This document shows, in pieces, positions 579-9,636 of a stretch of DNA of 64,000 bases. Numbering within the stretch: the stretch's first letter is position 1; each line of letters opens with the position of its first letter. Source of the stretch: Bacteroidia bacterium (GTDB lineage: Bacteria > Bacteroidota > Bacteroidia > Flavobacteriales > Flavobacteriaceae). Made by a program: the position numbers and the translations under genes. The notes beneath the pieces were generated by a model. The model saw only the letters and a program-made list of their open reading frames with translations. It did not search any database and was not told the origin of the DNA. The stretch covers positions 1,164,963 to 1,228,962 of the forward strand of contig JAUIAY010000001.1 of the NCBI GenBank assembly GCA_030425285.1. The letters run 5' to 3'.

Positions 579-3476
579 ATGGTTTTAAAAATCAACTTTT
601 CTGGTATCGTACTTATTGTTTTTATGCTTTTAAGCATTAATTGTTTTTCACAGCAACCAGATTACTCAAAAAAAATAGAAACTTATCAAAAAAGGCTAGA
701 TTCCATTGAACAAATTTCGGGGACAGAAAATCTTGAATATGGTAAGAATTTATTGAGGTTATCAAAGGAACTTCGTAAGGAAGGTAATCTTTATGAAGCA
801 AAAGAAAATAATATAAAGGCGAATTCTATATTCTCTAATTTGCAATATTTTAATTGGCTTGCGGTAGGTCAAATTAATTTATCACAGATTTATCGTGCTC
901 TTGGTAAGTTTGATAGAGCGATAAGTCTACAAAGTGAAGCATTATTGTATTTTGGTGATGAGGATAAAAAAACTTCAAATTATTTAGGTGGATTAAATAA
1001 CCTTGCAATTCTTTATGGCGAAATAGGGGACTATAAAAATGCTATTCCAATTTTTAAGGAGATTTTATCAATATTACCTGAAACTCACAAGGGGTTTTTG
1101 TCTGTAAATATTAGTCTGGCCGAAACCTACCAGCGTATGGGAGACTATGAAAATGCCCTTAAAATATATCTTGAATTATTGGATTCTGGCGATAAAGGAC
1201 ATAAAGATTATTGGCAACTCTTACAAAATTTAGCATTTGTATATGTTAAGCTTGGCGAATTTGATAAGGCTATGCAAATCTATGATGAAGCTCTGGTTAG
1301 TTGTGAAACTCAACTTGGTCAAGACCATTTTTTATATGGAAAATTACAGAACAATGTTGGTAAACTTTACTTCCAAATGGGTAATATTGAAAAAGCTCAA
1401 GCACTGTTTAAAGATGCCATAGATAACCTTTTAATTAAATACGACACGAGTAAAAAAGAGTACGGTTATTATCTCAATGATTATGCTGCCACTTTTTTAT
1501 ATCAAGGAAATTATGATAAAGCAATATCTTTATTGGAAGACAATGTTGACATAGGAAAGGAGAACCTAAATAAGGAAGGTTTGGACTATTGGAATAGAAA
1601 TTACCACTTGGCAAATGCTTATAATATGGCTGGCCGTTATGAGGAAGCAAAGCCTATTTTAGAGAAGGCTACTACAGAAATAAGAAATATTCTTGGAGAG
1701 AATCACACAACTTATGCAAAAATGTTGAATAGTTTGTGTGAAACTTATATTGCGTTGGACCTAGTAGATAAGGCAATTCCTTTACTGGAAGAATCCAATA
1801 GTATATTTGTAAGCGAGTTAAATAATATTTTCCAATTTCGTAGTGAGCAAGAAAAAAAGGCCTATTTGCAGTTGGTTCTCAAACATTTTGATTTTTTACA
1901 ATCCATTCCCATTGTTAAAAATGAAGATTACCCGAAATTAAATAATATTAATCTCAATAATCAATTAATGCTTAAAGGGCTATTGCTTAATAATTCAAAG
2001 AATATTCTAGAAAAACTTTCTAAATCAAATGATACACTTATTCAAAATAAAGTAATAGCCTATCGTTCAGAAAAATCAAAGATTTCGAGTTTGCTATCTC
2101 AGCCATTTGATGATAGAGATATGGATGTCGATAGTTTAAAAGAAATTGTTAATAGAAAAGAGGTTGATTTGGTGAAGTACTATAGCGATAATTTTGGTTC
2201 AGATTATTCTTTAAACAAAGATTGGAAAAAGCTTCAAGATCATTTAAAGAAAAAGGAATTAGCTATTGAATATTCTAGGTTTCAATTGACAAAAGGAAAT
2301 AAGGTATTGGATACTGTTTTTTATGCAGCTTATTTGTACCAAAAGAATTGGGAAAACCCAATTATGGTTCCATTGTTTGAAGACAGCCAGCTTAAGGAGG
2401 CCTTGTCTAAGAAAACCATAAATCAACTTTATGCTTCTAGAGGGTCAAAAGCTGTTAGTAAAGCAGATATAAAAGAAGTATATGAACTTCTTTGGGCTCC
2501 AATAGAAACGTATGTAAAGGATGTGGAGACAATTTATTTTTCACCCAGCGGATTATTGAACCAAGTTCCTTTTGCGGCAATTAATTTAGAGGGAGAGCCG
2601 TCATTGAATGAGCAATTTGACCTTATACAATTAAGTAGTACTGAACAATTAAATAAAGTGACTGTAAATCCAAATTTAACAGGTTCTATGTTTATCGGCG
2701 GTGTCAATTATGATTATTCAAAAGAATCTTTAAATACCAGTGATACGTTAAAGTACGCTAATTTAAATACTGACAATATCGGAAACTCTGGAGCTAGTAA
2801 TAATAGAGGAGATAATTGGGCTTATTTGCCAGGAACATTAAAGGAGATTGAAGATATTCAAGCCACTTTAAAGTCAAAAAATATAAAGTATTCAAGCTTA
2901 ATAGGCGATCAAGCTACAGAATCGAACTTCAAAAAAATTAGTGGAAATAGCCCAAGTGTTTTGCATATAGCAACTCATGGTTTTTTCTTTGAAGATTCAA
3001 AAGATTTAGAAAAATCAGATTCAGATGTGGGTTTAGAAAATGAATTTAAGTTTGCTGAAAACCCATTACTGCGTTCAGGCCTTCTATTGGCTGGAGCAAA
3101 TCATGTTTGGAAAAATGGTGTAAATCTGTTTGAAAATGAAGATGGTATTTTGACTGCCTTGGAGATTTCAAATTTAGATTTAAGCAATACTGATATTGTG
3201 GTGTTAAGTGCTTGTGAAACAGGTTTAGGTGACATTGAAGGCAGTGAAGGAGTTTATGGGTTGCAACGGGCTTTTAAAATGGCAGGAGTTGATATTATTG
3301 TCATGAGCCTTTGGCAGGTTCCTGATACAGAAACAGCAGAGTTTATGAATCTCTTTTATCTAAACTGGATTCAAGGACTTCAGGTTAGACAAGCATTTAT
3401 TCAAGCTCAAAAAACCATGCAAAAGAAATATGAAAATGATCCTTTAAAATGGGCAGCATTTGTTTTATTGGAATAG
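579..3476 (+). CDS. TPR-CHAT domain protein (caspase-like protease)
   Basis: This 965-residue protein has an N-terminal signal-like segment (GIVLIVFMLLSINCFSQ). About eight tetratricopeptide repeats follow, over residues 55-400 (for example YGEIGDYKNAIPIFKEIL and YVKLGEFDKAMQIYDEAL), then a helical linker. A CHAT domain fills roughly residues 640-965. The CHAT His-Cys dyad is visible: His800 in IATHGFFF and Cys879 in LSACETGLGD. The following GVYGLQRAFKMAGV and SLWQVPD motifs are typical of CHAT. CHAT proteins are clan CD cysteine peptidases usually gated by a sensor partner. The signal peptide suggests this one works in the periplasm or at the outer membrane, not in a cytoplasmic Cas-type complex. 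It follows the DUF4384 gene by 4 bases. Its substrate is unknown. Confidence 0.85.
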   Translation: MVLKINFSGIVLIVFMLLSINCFSQQPDYSKKIETYQKRLDSIEQISGTENLEYGKNLLRLSKELRKEGNLYEAKENNIKANSIFSNLQYFNWLAVGQINLSQIYRALGKFDRAISLQSEALLYFGDEDKKTSNYLGGLNNLAILYGEIGDYKNAIPIFKEILSILPETHKGFLSVNISLAETYQRMGDYENALKIYLELLDSGDKGHKDYWQLLQNLAFVYVKLGEFDKAMQIYDEALVSCETQLGQDHFLYGKLQNNVGKLYFQMGNIEKAQALFKDAIDNLLIKYDTSKKEYGYYLNDYAATFLYQGNYDKAISLLEDNVDIGKENLNKEGLDYWNRNYHLANAYNMAGRYEEAKPILEKATTEIRNILGENHTTYAKMLNSLCETYIALDLVDKAIPLLEESNSIFVSELNNIFQFRSEQEKKAYLQLVLKHFDFLQSIPIVKNEDYPKLNNINLNNQLMLKGLLLNNSKNILEKLSKSNDTLIQNKVIAYRSEKSKISSLLSQPFDDRDMDVDSLKEIVNRKEVDLVKYYSDNFGSDYSLNKDWKKLQDHLKKKELAIEYSRFQLTKGNKVLDTVFYAAYLYQKNWENPIMVPLFEDSQLKEALSKKTINQLYASRGSKAVSKADIKEVYELLWAPIETYVKDVETIYFSPSGLLNQVPFAAINLEGEPSLNEQFDLIQLSSTEQLNKVTVNPNLTGSMFIGGVNYDYSKESLNTSDTLKYANLNTDNIGNSGASNNRGDNWAYLPGTLKEIEDIQATLKSKNIKYSSLIGDQATESNFKKISGNSPSVLHIATHGFFFEDSKDLEKSDSDVGLENEFKFAENPLLRSGLLLAGANHVWKNGVNLFENEDGILTALEISNLDLSNTDIVVLSACETGLGDIEGSEGVYGLQRAFKMAGVDIIVMSLWQVPDTETAEFMNLFYLNWIQGLQVRQAFIQAQKTMQKKYENDPLKWAAFVLLE

Positions 3477-3664: not shown

Positions 3665-6600
3665 ATGAATAAGTATTTAGGCGTGCTATTATTGCTGTTA
3701 CCTTTTTTTTTAACCGCCCAAACAGTTTCTATTCCAGATCCAGAATTTGAACAATTTTTAATTGATGATGGCATTGATAGTGATACAACTATTAATGGTG
3801 AAGTACTTTTAAGTGATGTGTCTTCAGTTCCTATTTTATTTATTTCAGATTATGATATATCTAATTTAGAGGGACTTCAGTTCTTTTCTGGTTTAACAAA
3901 TTTTACATTGTATAATAATACGGGAGCACTATTAAATATTGATTTTTCTCAAAATGTATTATTAGACAAAATAATAATCATTGATTCTCCTTTTTTAAAT
4001 TCGATTGATATTAATTCCAATATTTTGCTTGAAGAGTTACAGTTGAATACTGGAAATGAAGGCTTTAGCGTTGTGGATGTTAGTTCAAATATAAATCTAA
4101 CCCTTTTAAATTTAGCAGATAATGGTATTAATTCTGTCAATGTTTCCAATAACACTCAATTAATTTCTTTAGTTTTAAGTGGTAATCCAATTACTTCAAT
4201 AGACGTAACTGAACTACCTGAATTACAAATATTATTGGTTCATTACACCCAATTAACGTCAATAGATGTTTCTTCTAATCCATTTATTCGAGATCTATGG
4301 GTTAATAATTGCAATTTAATCAATGCAAATCTAAAAAACGGATTTAATCAATTTATGACATCGGTATTATTAGATGGTAACCCTTCATTATCATGTGTTG
4401 AAGTTGATGATGTCGCTTATGCTAATACAGCTACAGGATGGTTGAAAGATGCAACTGCTGATTACGCCAATAATTGTAACCCTATTACTATTAATTCTTA
4501 TCCATATATAGAAGATTTTGAATCTGGTGCTAATGGTTGGTCTGTTAATGGTTATAATCCCTCTTGGGAATTAAATGTTCCGAATGGTAACTTTATTCAG
4601 GGTGCTGCATCTGGTAGTAATGCTTGGGTGACTAATGCTGTGGGTCCTCATAATCAATGGGAAGAGAGTTGGGTTGAAAGCCCGACTTTTGATTTGTCGT
4701 CTTTAAACACACCACATTTGCAAATTGATATTTGGTGGGAATGTGGGGAAGGTATTAACGGAGCATTAATACAATCAACCTTTGATAATGGTTTAACTTG
4801 GCAGAATCTTGGTTTTTTAAATGATCAACCGAATTGGTACAATAATAATAACATTAATAGTGAACCAGGAGGCAGTAATGTTGGGTGGTCTGGTAATGGA
4901 ATTTTTACAAATGGCTCTTTAAAATGGTTGAGGGCATATCAAGATTTAAGTCATTTAGCAGGGCCTAATAATGTGAAATTTAGAGTGGTTTTTGCTTCTA
5001 ATGGGTTTAATTTTGGGAGAGATGGCTTTGCTTTTGATACATTTTCAATTTTAGAAGAACCTTGTTTTGCAGGAAATGATATGACGCAATTTGTTTTGGG
5101 TTGTGAACTAGAAAGCGGTATTGTTAATTTAAATAGTTTTCTAACTGAAGAGACTAACGCTAATGGTGTTTGGGAAGCACTAGATGGTGTGGCTGTTTCA
5201 GTTAATGGAGACATTGATTTTACTGGTGTATCCGAAGGTAATTATGATTTTCAGTATTTAGTATCAACGGAAGGTGGTGCATGTACAGATGTAGCCATCA
5301 TAACCATTGATTTTCAGGAGACATTATCAGCCGGTACAAGTACTGAAATAGAAACCTGTGGAGGAGATGAATATTCTAGTTTTGATATGTTTGATTTTAT
5401 AGGGCTATATTTTGATGGTCTTAATCAATCAGGTGTTTGGACAGATTCAGGCGGATTTGAGGTTGAATTTCCAATATTTCCTTCGGATGGTGATGTTTAT
5501 ACCTACACTCATGCGGCAAATGGAGATTGCCCAGAGGTATCTTCAACAGTTACATTTATCCAACCACCAATATTAAGTGCTGGGGAAACACCTGAAACGG
5601 AAGATTTGGGATGTAATCCTCCAGAATTTACGATTGAATTGAACTCTAAATTAGTAAATGCTGATATTGGGGGAGAATGGAGAAATGCACCAGATGATTC
5701 AGGTGATATTGAAATTGTTTCTAGTACAGGTGATGGAGGAGAGCCCATAGATGAAGTTGATTTTGGAACATTAGGGGCAGGTTCATATTATTTCAGATTT
5801 GAATATGCAGTTCCAGATGATTGTGGGCTTTCGGAAAGTCCAACTGCTATTATTTCATTCGAGATTGCAATTTTTGATTCTCAAGCACCTAATGTTAGTA
5901 TCTCGTTTTGTGAAGATGATTTGAATCAAATAGATATTGAACAAGTTTTAGATTTTTTCGTTCAAGATGATGGTACAGGATTGTGGTCTTGGGATTATTT
6001 TGCTGGGCCAGGGAATTATGGTGACATAGGTGTGTATCAATTGTCAAATGGCTGTGGTGAACCATCAGGCTTTGTAAATGTATATTTAAACGCCTTACGT
6101 CCAAAAGTATTTTTGCAAGGAGCCCTATTAAACCCCAATGTTGGTGAAGAGCATTTAATGCGTGATGATTTAAGAGTCATGGGGCAATTACCAAGCCAAT
6201 CGCCTTACGCAGATGGTTCGTTTGTTTCTGGAGACCCCTTTTCAGTATCTGGAGAAAATGCTATTGTAGATTGGGTTTTGGTTGAGTTGCGTGATGAAGA
6301 ATCTTTGAGTACAGTTATGTTTTCACAACCTGCCTTATTGCAACGAGATGGTGATGTTGTTGGTTTGGATGGGGTATCGGCGCTTTGTTTTAAAGAAGAA
6401 TTTTCAGATACAGGAATTACAGGGAATTATTTTTTATCCATTAAACACAGAAACCATTTGGCTATAATGACGGAAAATCCAGTAGCAATTGGATTATCAT
6501 TTACAGAGTTAGTTGTAGATTTCACAGATGCCAATAATTCTATAACGTATGGAATAGACGCCCAAACTAACTTTGGAATGCCTGATAATAAATTGGGGAT

Positions 6601-6889
6601 GTGGGCTGGCGATGTAGATGGAAATGGAGTCATTCAATATGTTGGTGCTCAAGCCGAAACACCTAGTATGTTGTCCTTTATTATGAATCATCCATCAAAT
6701 ACACTTAATTTACCAACTTGGACAATAAATGAATATAATGATAATCCTTTTGATGTAGATTTAAATGGGACTACGCAATATGTGGGATCGGATTCCGAGT
6801 TACCATTTATTTTGCAGAATATATTTGCCTTTCCTGGAAATACATTTAATTTACCGACTTGGGTTATAGAGCAACAATTGCCTGATTAA
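3665..6889 (+). CDS. Large secreted LRR adhesin with C-terminal dockerin-like repeats
   Basis: The protein has 1074 residues and a clear signal peptide (YLGVLLLLLPFFLTAQ). Residues 40-270 are Bacteroidetes-type leucine-rich repeats (INSVNVSNNTQLISLVLSGNPITSIDV-like units). A beta-rich lectin or MAM-like region starting PYIEDFESGANGW follows, then Ig-like repeats. The tail from about residue 815 carries conserved segments DWVLVELRD, QRDGDVVGLDG and IKHRNHLAIMT. It ends in two Ca-binding-type repeats, DVDGNGVIQYVG (from residue 983) and DVDLNGTTQYVG (from residue 1030), each followed by a helix and a LNLPTW segment. No T9SS sorting domain is visible at the C-terminus. The T9SS-tagged gene that follows starts 16 bases later. 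The role is probably surface adhesion or glycan binding; the ligand is unknown. Confidence 0.75.
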   Translation: MNKYLGVLLLLLPFFLTAQTVSIPDPEFEQFLIDDGIDSDTTINGEVLLSDVSSVPILFISDYDISNLEGLQFFSGLTNFTLYNNTGALLNIDFSQNVLLDKIIIIDSPFLNSIDINSNILLEELQLNTGNEGFSVVDVSSNINLTLLNLADNGINSVNVSNNTQLISLVLSGNPITSIDVTELPELQILLVHYTQLTSIDVSSNPFIRDLWVNNCNLINANLKNGFNQFMTSVLLDGNPSLSCVEVDDVAYANTATGWLKDATADYANNCNPITINSYPYIEDFESGANGWSVNGYNPSWELNVPNGNFIQGAASGSNAWVTNAVGPHNQWEESWVESPTFDLSSLNTPHLQIDIWWECGEGINGALIQSTFDNGLTWQNLGFLNDQPNWYNNNNINSEPGGSNVGWSGNGIFTNGSLKWLRAYQDLSHLAGPNNVKFRVVFASNGFNFGRDGFAFDTFSILEEPCFAGNDMTQFVLGCELESGIVNLNSFLTEETNANGVWEALDGVAVSVNGDIDFTGVSEGNYDFQYLVSTEGGACTDVAIITIDFQETLSAGTSTEIETCGGDEYSSFDMFDFIGLYFDGLNQSGVWTDSGGFEVEFPIFPSDGDVYTYTHAANGDCPEVSSTVTFIQPPILSAGETPETEDLGCNPPEFTIELNSKLVNADIGGEWRNAPDDSGDIEIVSSTGDGGEPIDEVDFGTLGAGSYYFRFEYAVPDDCGLSESPTAIISFEIAIFDSQAPNVSISFCEDDLNQIDIEQVLDFFVQDDGTGLWSWDYFAGPGNYGDIGVYQLSNGCGEPSGFVNVYLNALRPKVFLQGALLNPNVGEEHLMRDDLRVMGQLPSQSPYADGSFVSGDPFSVSGENAIVDWVLVELRDEESLSTVMFSQPALLQRDGDVVGLDGVSALCFKEEFSDTGITGNYFLSIKHRNHLAIMTENPVAIGLSFTELVVDFTDANNSITYGIDAQTNFGMPDNKLGMWAGDVDGNGVIQYVGAQAETPSMLSFIMNHPSNTLNLPTWTINEYNDNPFDVDLNGTTQYVGSDSELPFILQNIFAFPGNTFNLPTWVIEQQLPD

Positions 6890-6905
6890 TGCTAAAATTA
6901 TCACT

Positions 6906-7721
6906 ATGAGAAAAATATTGTTTTTTACAGCGCTTCTGCTTTGTTTTAATGGCAAAGCCCAAAATTACTCCTTTAGTTTAGTACACAATTCTGAATATAG
7001 TTTTTCAGTTGTTGCGGTACCTGATTTTGATTCTGGTTCATTTGAGCCTATGGTCCAATTTTACGGGTTTACATTAGTATTGCCAGCTGGAACAACAGTT
7101 ACCGTTGATGATATTCAACCCAATGGGCTAACATTAATAGGAGGTAGTTATAGTATTGTTCCTGGTACTGCTGTTTCAAGTGCCGATGCTTCAATGTCTG
7201 ATAAAAGTTTATTGCTTTTTGCAACTGATGCCAGTTCAGGCTTATCTATTGGAAGTCATACTAGTGGACAGCAAATTTCCATGATTACATTCATAGTCAA
7301 TGGAAGCCCAAGTTCAGGTGAGTTAACGCTTTTAGGTAATGATACATTAACTGGTTTAGCTTATCCGGCACTTCAAAACTTTTATACAATTGATGCGTAC
7401 GATGATTCAGTGTTTTCAGCTGTTGACTTATACTCTGGTCAAACTGGCACAAGTAGTTTTGACTTTGCCACTTTGGATATTGTTGAAAATACTCTTAATG
7501 AAATAACAGTTTACCCAAACCCAGTGGCTGATGCGATTAGAATTAAAGGAGATGTGTCAAAAATTGAAGTTGTTGAGTTGTATTCTATGTCAGGTAAACT
7601 CATATACTCAATCTCTAATAGCTTTGAAAGTATTGATGTTAAAGGGTTAGATTCTGCAGTGTATTTTATAAAGTTAAAATCTGGGAATTCAACTAGGGTC
7701 ATTAAAATTGTAAAGGATTAA
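6906..7721 (+). CDS. T9SS type A sorted surface protein, possibly cohesin-like
   Basis: This 271-residue protein has a signal peptide (FFTALLLCFNGKAQ). A single beta-sandwich-like domain covers residues 20-190. A classic type A sorting domain follows, starting NEITVYPNPVADAIRIKG with VELYSMSGKLIYS and ending SGNSTRVIKIVKD, which directs export and cell-surface attachment through the type IX system. The beta domain has the feel of a cohesin module (an early strand FSVVAVPDFDSGSF, hydrophobic FTLVLPAG, late MITFIVNG), but sequence alone does not prove this. It lies 16 bases after the dockerin-repeat adhesin and is very likely in the same operon, so it could be the anchor of that protein. Its stop codon overlaps the convergent gene's stop. 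Confidence 0.8.
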   Translation: MRKILFFTALLLCFNGKAQNYSFSLVHNSEYSFSVVAVPDFDSGSFEPMVQFYGFTLVLPAGTTVTVDDIQPNGLTLIGGSYSIVPGTAVSSADASMSDKSLLLFATDASSGLSIGSHTSGQQISMITFIVNGSPSSGELTLLGNDTLTGLAYPALQNFYTIDAYDDSVFSAVDLYSGQTGTSSFDFATLDIVENTLNEITVYPNPVADAIRIKGDVSKIEVVELYSMSGKLIYSISNSFESIDVKGLDSAVYFIKLKSGNSTRVIKIVKD

Positions 7722-8497
7722 AACGCACATAATTTATAAGTATCACACAAAACTGAATTTATTTCTGTTTCGGAGACACCTAATTTTTTTAAATCCTTAA
7801 TTAAAGATTTGTGTTCCTTTTTTAACTCTGAAAACTGTTTGGAGTCGACAATGGAAAAGAAATTATAAGGTATGTTTTTTAAATTTGGAAACTCTTCTGT
7901 AGTGACTGTCCATTTGTATTCGGTATCATTACTGAAGAAAGAATTCTTCGTGTCAAACGTAATAAAACTATTCTCTGTTTCAGTTTGAAATAACTCGTTT
8001 GTTTTTAGGTTTTGTAAATAAAAATAATAAACACCCTTGTCAGATTCTTTCCAATTGAACTCAATTGTCTTTCCTGTTATAAAAGATTGGTCTTCAGGTG
8101 TGCTCATTAAAGCATCGCCTCTAAAAACACCTGCGATTTTAGTTTCTGTATTTTCCCTGTTTAATAATTCATCCCAGATGAATTTAAAATATTTTGTGGT
8201 CAAACTTGATGTTTTACCTTCAAATTTTGAAAGTAATAAGGTGTTGAAATCACACAGGCCTTCTTGGTCTCTTTTAAAAATGTTTCCTTCTTTATCAATG
8301 GCTGTTATTTGGGATTTTGGGAATAGATTTAGTATATATTCTTTTGTAACAATATCACCCTTTGAAATAGGTTTTGTGCTTTGAGGGGATTTTAAAAGTA
8401 TGTCGCCTTCAAACCTATAAACACATAGACTGTCTTGCGAGAAACCACATTGAATGATTAATATGAATATTAAGAATCTAAAAATTGACTTTTCCAT
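7718..8497 (-). CDS. Secreted protein of unknown function in CHASE2 operon
   Basis: The 259-residue protein has a signal peptide (RFLIFILIIQCGFSQ), so it is periplasmic or lipidated. I do not recognise a family. The middle (ISKGDIVTKEYILNLFPKSQ) looks like a short FecR or SH3-like segment, and residues 125-210 (GKTIEFNWKESDKGVYYFYLQN, then TEYKWTV) look like a fibronectin-like beta domain. A charged helical tail follows. Its start lies 28 bases inside the end of the upstream CHASE2 gene, so the two are translationally coupled. Downstream it converges on the T9SS gene with overlapping stop codons. It is possibly a binding partner of the CHASE2 protein. Confidence 0.65.
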   Translation of the reverse strand: MEKSIFRFLIFILIIQCGFSQDSLCVYRFEGDILLKSPQSTKPISKGDIVTKEYILNLFPKSQITAIDKEGNIFKRDQEGLCDFNTLLLSKFEGKTSSLTTKYFKFIWDELLNRENTETKIAGVFRGDALMSTPEDQSFITGKTIEFNWKESDKGVYYFYLQNLKTNELFQTETENSFITFDTKNSFFSNDTEYKWTVTTEEFPNLKNIPYNFFSIVDSKQFSELKKEHKSLIKDLKKLGVSETEINSVLCDTYKLCAF

Positions 8498-9636
8498 TTA
8501 AAACGTTTATTTAGAAAATTTAATAGATGTGTATAATACCCTATCATTCCTAATCCAACTAAAGAAAGAATAAGAATTGGCGTAATATAAATATATACAT
8601 TGGATTCAATAAGTTTTATTGCCGCATATAACAATAGTATTGATATTATTAGTTGTAAGAACTTTATAGTTAGATCATAGACTAATTCATTTTTTTTCTT
8701 AAGTCTAAAACCAAGAAGTGTAATGAAAAAGCATAGAACGAAAGCTATTGTAAACGAGATGAAATTTGGTATTTTTTTTATGAAGTTTTCTTGAATCAGC
8801 ATTTTGATAATGTTGGCTTGGATAACTACTCCATGCATGTCTGGTGTTGAACGACCAACAAATTTCTCATTCAAAGGCGTAAAGTGCTTGTCTTCAATGT
8901 CGTATGGGTTGCCAGTTGGAGTTCCAAGGTATCCAAACAGGACAATGGCATTATTCAAAGCAGGGATAGTATTTGATGAGAGAATTTCTTCAATATCAAA
9001 TGTTAGGAATGAATCTAAATTTCCAAAATAGTTTATGGGGATTCTTGATTGTAATATGTTTTTTACATTCTTTTCACCAGAGTATCCAGATGCCATAGCA
9101 ATTTTAGAGGCAAAGGAAAAACTGTCATTCCTAAATCCAACGAAATCCCTAATAACTGAATTTTGATTCTCAAGTTCAACATTAATAAACCCTTCGTTGT
9201 AATCATTTAGCCTAAAGTACGGATGGTTCTCTATCTTGTTATCGCCATCGTAGTAAAATGAAAAAACTAGGTTGTCACGATTGCTAAAAGAACCTTTTAA
9301 AATGGAATCGTAATAAGAGTTTTTGAGATCTTTGAAAATAATATCTAAACCAATAACTTTTGGGTTGTGACTTGAAACCATGTCGATGGCCTTGGCTATT
9401 TGGTACCTGTCTTCGTGTTTTATATTTACAATAATTATATCATTACTAACTCTTTTGTCTAAAATTTTAGAGTGATAAATATCAGTAAAGCTAAAATCTG
9501 TAAATGCTCTTTCAAAAGGATCTAAAATAGAAAGGTTGACAACAAATAGATAAAGGATGCCTGATACAATAAAGGAAAATACCGTGCAAAACAATGCGTC
9601 AAAGCATAAATAATTCCATTTCCTTTTTATTGCCAT
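8470..9636 (-). CDS. CHASE2-domain membrane protein
   Basis: The protein has 388 residues. One N-terminal membrane helix (residues ~14-34, FCTVFSFIVSGILYLFVV) is followed by a large extracytoplasmic CHASE2 sensor region containing IIIVNIKHEDRY, NPKVIGLDIIFKD and NAIVLFGYLG. The C-terminus has three membrane helices (around FISFTIAFVLCFFITLLGF, LQLIISILLLYAAIKL and ITPILILSLVGLGMIGYY) and only a short cytoplasmic tail. This is the standard CHASE2 topology. However, the cyclase, kinase or phosphatase that usually follows is absent, so output must come from a partner. It is flanked by an unknown lipoprotein (7 bases upstream) and an unknown secreted protein. CHASE2 and CHAT genes co-occur in other bacteria, and a CHAT gene is only 5 kb away here. 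Confidence 0.85.
   Translation of the reverse strand: MAIKRKWNYLCFDALFCTVFSFIVSGILYLFVVNLSILDPFERAFTDFSFTDIYHSKILDKRVSNDIIIVNIKHEDRYQIAKAIDMVSSHNPKVIGLDIIFKDLKNSYYDSILKGSFSNRDNLVFSFYYDGDNKIENHPYFRLNDYNEGFINVELENQNSVIRDFVGFRNDSFSFASKIAMASGYSGEKNVKNILQSRIPINYFGNLDSFLTFDIEEILSSNTIPALNNAIVLFGYLGTPTGNPYDIEDKHFTPLNEKFVGRSTPDMHGVVIQANIIKMLIQENFIKKIPNFISFTIAFVLCFFITLLGFRLKKKNELVYDLTIKFLQLIISILLLYAAIKLIESNVYIYITPILILSLVGLGMIGYYTHLLNFLNKRFKWKSQFLDS

Follow-up and report, generated by a model that had tools for sequence, protein, structure and literature searches.

Introduction

The closest parallel in the literature to the gene pair described here is, going by the accessible part of the report, the tandem-cohesin scaffoldin of Candidatus Stygibacter (Cloacimonadota), a protein of 3,755 amino acids (aa) that combines tandem cohesins with carbohydrate-binding modules in a cellulosome-like system inferred from metagenome-assembled genomes (MAGs) (PMC8542988). 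The available text of two rumen studies states that cohesins and dockerins were not found in rumen Bacteroidetes, as in other Bacteroidetes (PMC5831590), and that 20% of the cohesin sequences in a rumen metasecretome were assigned to Flavobacteriaceae (PMC4035507). The pair studied here lies in a 64,000-nucleotide stretch of DNA (the window) from a Bacteroidia bacterium of the Flavobacteriaceae (assembly GCA_030425285.1, contig JAUIAY010000001.1, positions 1,164,963 to 1,228,962). Gene 1 (3665–6889, + strand) encodes a putatively Sec-exported, leucine-rich repeat (LRR) adhesin-like protein of 1074 aa without a signal for the type IX secretion system (T9SS), and gene 2 (6906–7721, + strand) encodes a T9SS-sorted protein of 271 aa with a predicted cohesin-fold domain; both are intact open reading frames (ORFs), separated by a gap of 16 bp. 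An earlier, sequence-only reading of this DNA had proposed that a dockerin-like tail on the first protein interacts with a cohesin-like second protein, which would carry or anchor it at the surface, and this interpretation is partly supported by the present work. We consider it likely that the two proteins form a docking pair of the cohesin-dockerin type, adapted to the T9SS, in which gene 1 is the client and gene 2 the carrier that anchors it at the cell surface. A search of the literature, covering titles and abstract openings, returned no description of such a tail-carrier pair.

Gene 2, the putative carrier

Gene 2 is a T9SS type A cargo protein, scoring above the curated cut-offs, in a genome that carries the T9SS translocon. 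The sorting domain (residues 202–270; 7509–7715, + strand) was recognized by TIGR04183 (52.8 bits, cut-off 23) and PF18962 (46.5 bits, cut-off 27), the matches covering residues 202–268/270, and residues 198–271 were matched in VIA-align by the C-terminal domains (CTDs) of T9SS cargo, with 8glk_D at Z 11.1. The SprA model TIGR04189 scored 2775.2 bits in the window's genome (G000) and matched in 0 of 14 control genomes. A signal-peptide-like N-terminus was read from the sequence at residues 1–19 (6906–6962, + strand), and the structural model has a helix at residues 2–13.

The AlphaFold2 model of gene 2, built with 20 relatives, had a mean predicted local distance difference test score (pLDDT) of 86.3 and, together with the two family matches, bore out the earlier description of a single β-sandwich followed by a type A domain. 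The predicted cohesin-fold domain spans residues 20–190 (6963–7475, + strand). When residues 16–190 were compared with known structures using VIA-align, the top matches were cohesins (6kgf_C, Z 10.5, root-mean-square deviation (rmsd) 3.0, 129 residues aligned; 1ohz_A, Z 9.8). The matches included cohesins of types I, II and III, and non-cohesin sandwiches scored below them (pilin 9lty_A, Z 8.4; 9ifr, Z 8.1). The sequence-only reading had made its cohesin-type partner depend on such a fold, and a cohesin fold is indeed what the predicted model displays. A search of the PDB with the gene 2 sequence reached only T9SS CTDs, with unrelated chains beneath them and no cohesins.

Gene 1 and its tail

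Gene 1 opens with a signal-peptide-like N-terminus, also read from the sequence (residues 1–19; 3665–3721, + strand), and has an LRR region at residues 60–238 (3842–4378, + strand). The LRR assignment is weak, as the internalin-type model NF033187 (42.6 bits) lies far under its cut-off and LRR_4 (15.3 bits) likewise falls short of its own. Pfam and NCBIfam scans at E≤1 identified no T9SS domain in gene 1, and neither a type B domain nor a PorP/SprF-type family in either gene. The ORFs and these scans confirmed three earlier statements, namely that gene 1 has no T9SS domain, that it ends in two repeats and that gene 2 begins 16 bases further on.

The DxDxNGxxxYVG repeats begin at residues 983 and 1030, corresponding to DNA positions 6611 and 6752. 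They are preceded by a conserved domain, here called D (about 140 aa; 6101–6541, + strand; alignment A4), which appears X-module-like by fold in the model of a relative; the tail is therefore a two-domain module. Loop-pattern analysis placed F-hand-like calcium loops at residues 983–998 (6611–6658, + strand) and 1030–1045 (6752–6799, + strand), so that the two F-hand loops of a dockerin are present. Each loop has a glycine at position 12, where a canonical loop has its acid, and an acidic residue at position 16. Because the acidic residue stands at position 16 rather than 12, we refer to the tail as dockerin-like and not as a canonical dockerin. Sorted by loop pattern, the 156 distinct tails fall into 41 with the canonical 12-residue loop (type 2) and 115 of the window's type (type 1). 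Within type 1, positions 1, 3 and 5 are mostly D or N, an acid (D or E) occupies position 16 in 96% of first and 99% of second repeats, and position 6 is glycine in 97% of second and 46% of first repeats. Among loci from distant parts of the phylum (L237, L241, L243, L272 and others) the repeats were seen to vary strongly by lineage, with D still recognizable; the loops of L237, for example, do not follow the usual D/N pattern.

A structural match for the tail was obtained with a relative, L131, whose tail is 53% identical to that of the window. The L131 tail and its partner were folded as one chain, the stop codon between them being read as glycine; D and the dockerin-like part had pLDDT values mostly of 80–98, and the predicted template modelling score (pTM) of the whole was 0.51. 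Residues 1–251 of this model matched chains of CipA (4fl4_C, Z 8.5, rmsd 3.5, 142 residues aligned, 16% identity; 3kcp_A, Z 8.4, 145 aligned). The CipA side of the match consists of chain residues 162–310, which we take to be the X-module plus the type II dockerin. The match was made by L131 and not by the window tail, lies barely above the level that the tool labels "common", and falls in a part of the model that few other rows cover. Residues 290–454 of the joined model again matched cohesins (4uyq_A, Z 9.0).

At the sequence level, Pfam Dockerin_1 was reached by three of the eight tails scanned, all of type 2, with 16.1, 13.4 and 7.5 bits (under the cut-off of 22.9). The window tail, compared with the PDB, hit dockerin 4dh2_B at E 0.65, beneath three methyltransferase rows at 0.38–0.39. 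A profile of type 2 dockerins (A6, comprising 28 of the 33 type 2 sequences found) was led by two ScaB dockerin entries (4e-5), and the rest of the 60 rows listed held a few dockerins among many calmodulins; A6 is therefore better evidence of EF-hand-type loops than of membership in the dockerins.

Co-variation of tail and partner

Sequence comparisons clearly point to tail and partner having evolved together. Across 42 distinct linked type 1 pairs, the pairwise distances of dockerin-like and cohesin-like domains correlated with r 0.87 (Mantel p 0.0005), and the partial correlation given D and CTD was also 0.87. All other combinations were far lower (dockerin-D 0.18, D-cohesin 0.14, D-CTD 0.34, cohesin-CTD 0.28 and dockerin-CTD 0.20). 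Reduction to 25 non-redundant pairs left a dockerin-cohesin r of 0.68 (Spearman 0.46, Mantel p 0.0005), and no other combination exceeded 0.30. Nearest neighbours agreed between dockerin and cohesin in 23/42 cases and between D and cohesin in 8/42. Since D adjoins the dockerin and the CTD adjoins the cohesin within the same proteins, physical proximity is not by itself enough to account for this contrast.

The tails that lack an adjoining partner were examined in five genomes. In 30 of 31 cases the nearest linked dockerin was found in the tail's own genome, as compared with 7 of 31 when D was used. Together with the occurrence of a linked pair in every tail-bearing genome of the family (23/23, see below), this likeness fits one carrier serving several clients.

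Recurrence in the family and the phylum

The sequence-only reading had called for a survey of genomes for the same tail followed by a small T9SS protein. In the family search the tail was present in 23 of 199 genomes. Partner matches were strong (E<1e-10, the limit being chosen after viewing the list) in 18 genomes, all of them among these 23, and the remaining five have a type 2 partner adjoining the tail gene. Each of the tail-bearing genomes (23/23) has one or more tail genes with a partner as the very next gene. A further 17 genomes with only weak matches to profile A1 of type 1 cohesin-like domains (best 8.3e-6) were set aside, and none of them is tail-bearing. The window's own genome contains a second pair, of type 2, in which a 3721-aa ORF is followed 23 bases on by a T9SS-tailed protein of 290 aa.

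At the fetched loci of the family, 37 of 70 distinct tails are directly followed by a recognized partner. Among same-strand gene pairs whose first gene is not a tail gene, taken from the loci of all three surveys, the second gene was T9SS-tailed in 6 of 271, and the linkage is therefore above chance. It is worth noting that these family counts are partial: there were 74 tail matches, and those unfetched include four contigs of G079 (of its 10 matches) and two of the four of G148. At least one tail counted as unlinked, L035, breaks off close to the end of a contig, at which there is a fragment of a partner, and L067 was excluded from the partners, the protein 222 bases downstream being an unrelated T9SS protein. 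Tails can greatly outnumber partners, with 17 and 3 in G096 and 13 and 2 in G195. When partners were found through their N-terminal domain alone, a local profile detected the T9SS CTD in 38 of 39, although the seed of the profile behind this search came from a set picked by the YPNP motif. The 20/20 T9SS matches of alignment A2 were not relied on, because the partners in it had been picked by a YPNP-type motif and the result is partly circular. L123 has TAG stops and was omitted from the fold alignment.

A second survey covered the genes next door to the tail at 79 named loci, drawn from the best 80 of 537. For its 86 tails, the next gene was a recognized partner in 27 cases and another T9SS-tailed gene in 4; it was cut off in 10, and 6 offered too little sequence.

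The two-gene arrangement is widespread in the phylum. Among 395 Bacteroidota genomes, 46 contain D (E≤1e-10), and the phylum sample comprised 44 tails on 40 regions from 35 D-bearing genomes. These tails were followed by a complete same-strand ORF (38), an ORF cut by the edge (4) or a gene on the opposite strand (2). Thirty-seven of the 38 complete neighbours were scanned, the omitted one being a 2404-aa protein that is itself tail-bearing; 26/37 matched a T9SS type A domain and 2/37 a type B domain at E≤0.01.

Fusions, clients and carrier variants

Two natural fusions were identified, L157 (571 aa, from a Chlorobiota MAG) and L159 (Winogradskyella), in each of which one ORF contains D, dockerin-like repeats, a cohesin-like domain and a CTD, in that order. 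No other tail protein has its own CTD (2 of 183 distinct). A crude rule assigned a signal peptide to 98 of 104 tail genes and, among the partners, to 63 of 65. The nine clients scanned comprised two with an M43 peptidase region, one with an M60-like peptidase region, two with LRRs, one with fn3, one with HYR and two in which nothing was recognized. Many tail proteins are only about 290–350 aa long, with little sequence in front of D and the dockerin-like repeats (L049, L050, L051, L053, L073, L106, L109, L113 and others); these may be adaptors rather than adhesins.

A single cohesin-like domain was seen per examined carrier over 320 aa, which differs from the several cohesins and plant-wall enzymes of a cellulosome. 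Enlarged type 2 carriers of 742–1463 aa were also observed (L109, L135, L181, L190, L195, L196 and L159), with a single N-terminal cohesin-like domain, a terminal T9SS CTD and other sequence between the two.

Neighbourhood of the pair

Upstream in the window lie a DUF4384-like gene (17–574, + strand; 24.2 bits, under the cut-off of 27) and, directly after it, a gene for a tetratricopeptide repeat protein with a CHAT (caspase-like) domain (579–3476, + strand; 199 bits). Just past the gene pair, on the opposite strand, is a gene for a CHASE2-domain protein (8470–9636, - strand; 80.3 bits), whose two neighbours gave no Pfam match.

Discussion

The anatomy of the two genes, the predicted folds, the recurrence of the arrangement, the co-variation and the natural fusions together lead us to read gene 2 as a cohesin-type carrier. 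The dockerin-type nature of the tail, as first suggested from the repeats, has gained support from the CipA match of the L131 tail (Z 8.5), the calcium-loop pattern, the co-variation and the fusions. The sequence-only reading had also held that its proposal would fail if the tail occurred widely without a T9SS neighbour. Superficially this is the case, 33 of the 70 family tails having a non-partner or no recognized partner next door; nevertheless, a linked pair exists in each of the 23 tail-bearing genomes, and 30 of 31 unlinked tails resemble a dockerin of their own genome.

Several results weigh against a cohesin-dockerin pair. Besides those 33 tails, 39 of the 86 tails at the named loci have something else next door. 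Neither window protein matched Pfam Cohesin or Dockerin at E≤1, and the window tail gave no Pfam dockerin match even at E≤10. Profile A1, run against the sequences of the PDB, reached no cohesin. Foldseek alone, with the gene 2 model, returned only two chains at E≤0.001 (a T9SS CTD and an IL-23 chain), and from about 1e-3 on its matches were cohesins mixed with immunoglobulin-like folds. The interface between tail and partner is not readable from the joined L131 model at a pTM of 0.51. Among distant partners of the phylum (about 360–445 aa), Pfam Cohesin matched 2 of 37, weakly (best E 0.012), and 0 of 10 when these were re-scanned singly, and a cohesin fold is not established for that group. 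Lastly, the co-inheritance of a short DNA segment could partly cause the co-variation.

In the mechanism that we propose, both proteins would reach the periplasm via Sec, as the signal peptides read from their sequences suggest. The dockerin-like tail would then bind the cohesin-like domain, probably with calcium, in keeping with the fold, the motif and the co-variation. The sorting domain of the carrier would direct either the whole complex or just the carrier through the T9SS, the genome encoding SprA. For T9SS type A cargo, removal of the sorting domain and surface attachment are established. The same would apply here: the sorting domain would be removed, the carrier attached to the cell surface and the client thereby held there non-covalently, and a single carrier could serve several clients where a genome has many tails. 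Gene 2 would thus give gene 1 its signal for T9SS export and anchoring in trans; we infer the binding, the part played by calcium, the translocation as a complex and the anchoring. Whether the two proteins cross the outer membrane as a ready-made complex is, in our estimate, an evenly balanced matter.

Of the alternatives, the one that survives best concerns the order of events. The carrier might be exported and anchored by the T9SS first and only later capture clients that arrive by another route or from neighbouring cells. The evidence for docking and anchoring is silent on where in the cell binding occurs, and unlinked clients (33/70 tails) need no co-translation with a carrier. We nonetheless regard this separate exit as rather unlikely, given that the clients have Sec signals (98/104 by the crude rule) but no recognized signal for export across the outer membrane, and that pairs often lie within tens of bases of each other (16 in the window), which suggests assembly in step.

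It is also conceivable that the machinery reads the tail directly, as a sorting signal related to the T9SS, and that gene 2 is a dedicated helper or chaperone. PorP/SprF-type proteins are helpers of this kind for T9SS type B cargo. The tail is strictly C-terminal, the clients have no other T9SS domain (the two exceptions in 183 being the fusions), and a helper gene next door is the arrangement of SprB/SprF. Gene 2, in contrast, is itself type A cargo with a cohesin-fold domain and gave no PorP/SprF match at E≤1; 33 of 70 tails lack a recognized adjoining partner; and the natural fusions carry a CTD that a self-sufficient signal would make needless. A directly read signal therefore appears improbable to us. 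The least probable explanation, and a very unlikely one, is an ordinary operon whose two surface proteins are unrelated and make no contact, the loops only stabilizing the tail: calcium loops are common in surface proteins and the window proteins have no sequence-level cohesin or dockerin match, but such an operon leads one to expect neither the dockerin-cohesin co-variation, nor the own-genome matching of unlinked tails, nor the fusions, nor the 23/23 linkage.

Returning to the docking pair, a wider generalization can be offered tentatively, at somewhat less than even probability by our judgement. The Bacteroidota may possess a general second route through the T9SS, in which small cohesin carriers with a T9SS tag take signal-less clients across in the form of ready-folded complexes, the tails forming a distinct class of dockerins (with loops four residues longer, behind an X-like module), and in some genomes one carrier serving a whole set of clients. 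T9SS cargo is at present recognized by its own C-terminal domain; if clients can indeed travel on a carrier, many large Bacteroidota surface proteins without a signal are wrongly catalogued, either as periplasmic or as having no known location. The T9SS would moreover handle non-covalent complexes, which bears on how the translocon works. The pairs would also be a natural source of orthogonal dockerin-cohesin combinations, with specificity readable from the co-variation.

Comparison with known systems

The system of Candidatus Stygibacter resembles the present one in two respects, according to the accessible part of the report: its secreted proteins bear dockerins, and its cohesin protein has, for attachment to the surface, a C-terminal domain of the T9SS type (PMC8542988). 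The same part of the text describes neither a gene pair nor co-variation (PMC8542988). In place of the scaffoldin, the locus studied here encodes a protein of 271 aa with a single cohesin-like domain, in a gene adjoining that of its client. With respect to type A cargo in general, gene 2 conforms to TIGR04183 and differs in that it would seem to carry a second protein. The T9SS type B cargo SprB and its PorP/SprF-type partner SprF share with the pair the order of a large adhesin gene followed by a partner gene for surface display; here, however, the adhesin lacks a type B domain and it is the partner that is T9SS cargo, of type A.

A further likeness is to the clostridial cellulosome, especially where the X-module and type II dockerin of CipA engage a surface-anchoring cohesin. 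Common to both are (i) a cohesin fold, predicted in our case, (ii) a separate anchor protein, (iii) matching of subtypes and, possibly, (iv) a tail in which an X-module-like domain precedes dockerin-like repeats, as judged from the structural match of the relative L131. The two differ in that the anchor is a T9SS type A domain here and S-layer homology repeats there, and the calcium loops of the window are acidic at position 16 instead of 12. Each carrier, finally, has one recognizable cohesin-like domain, and its putative clients are LRR, fn3, HYR and peptidase proteins rather than cellulases.

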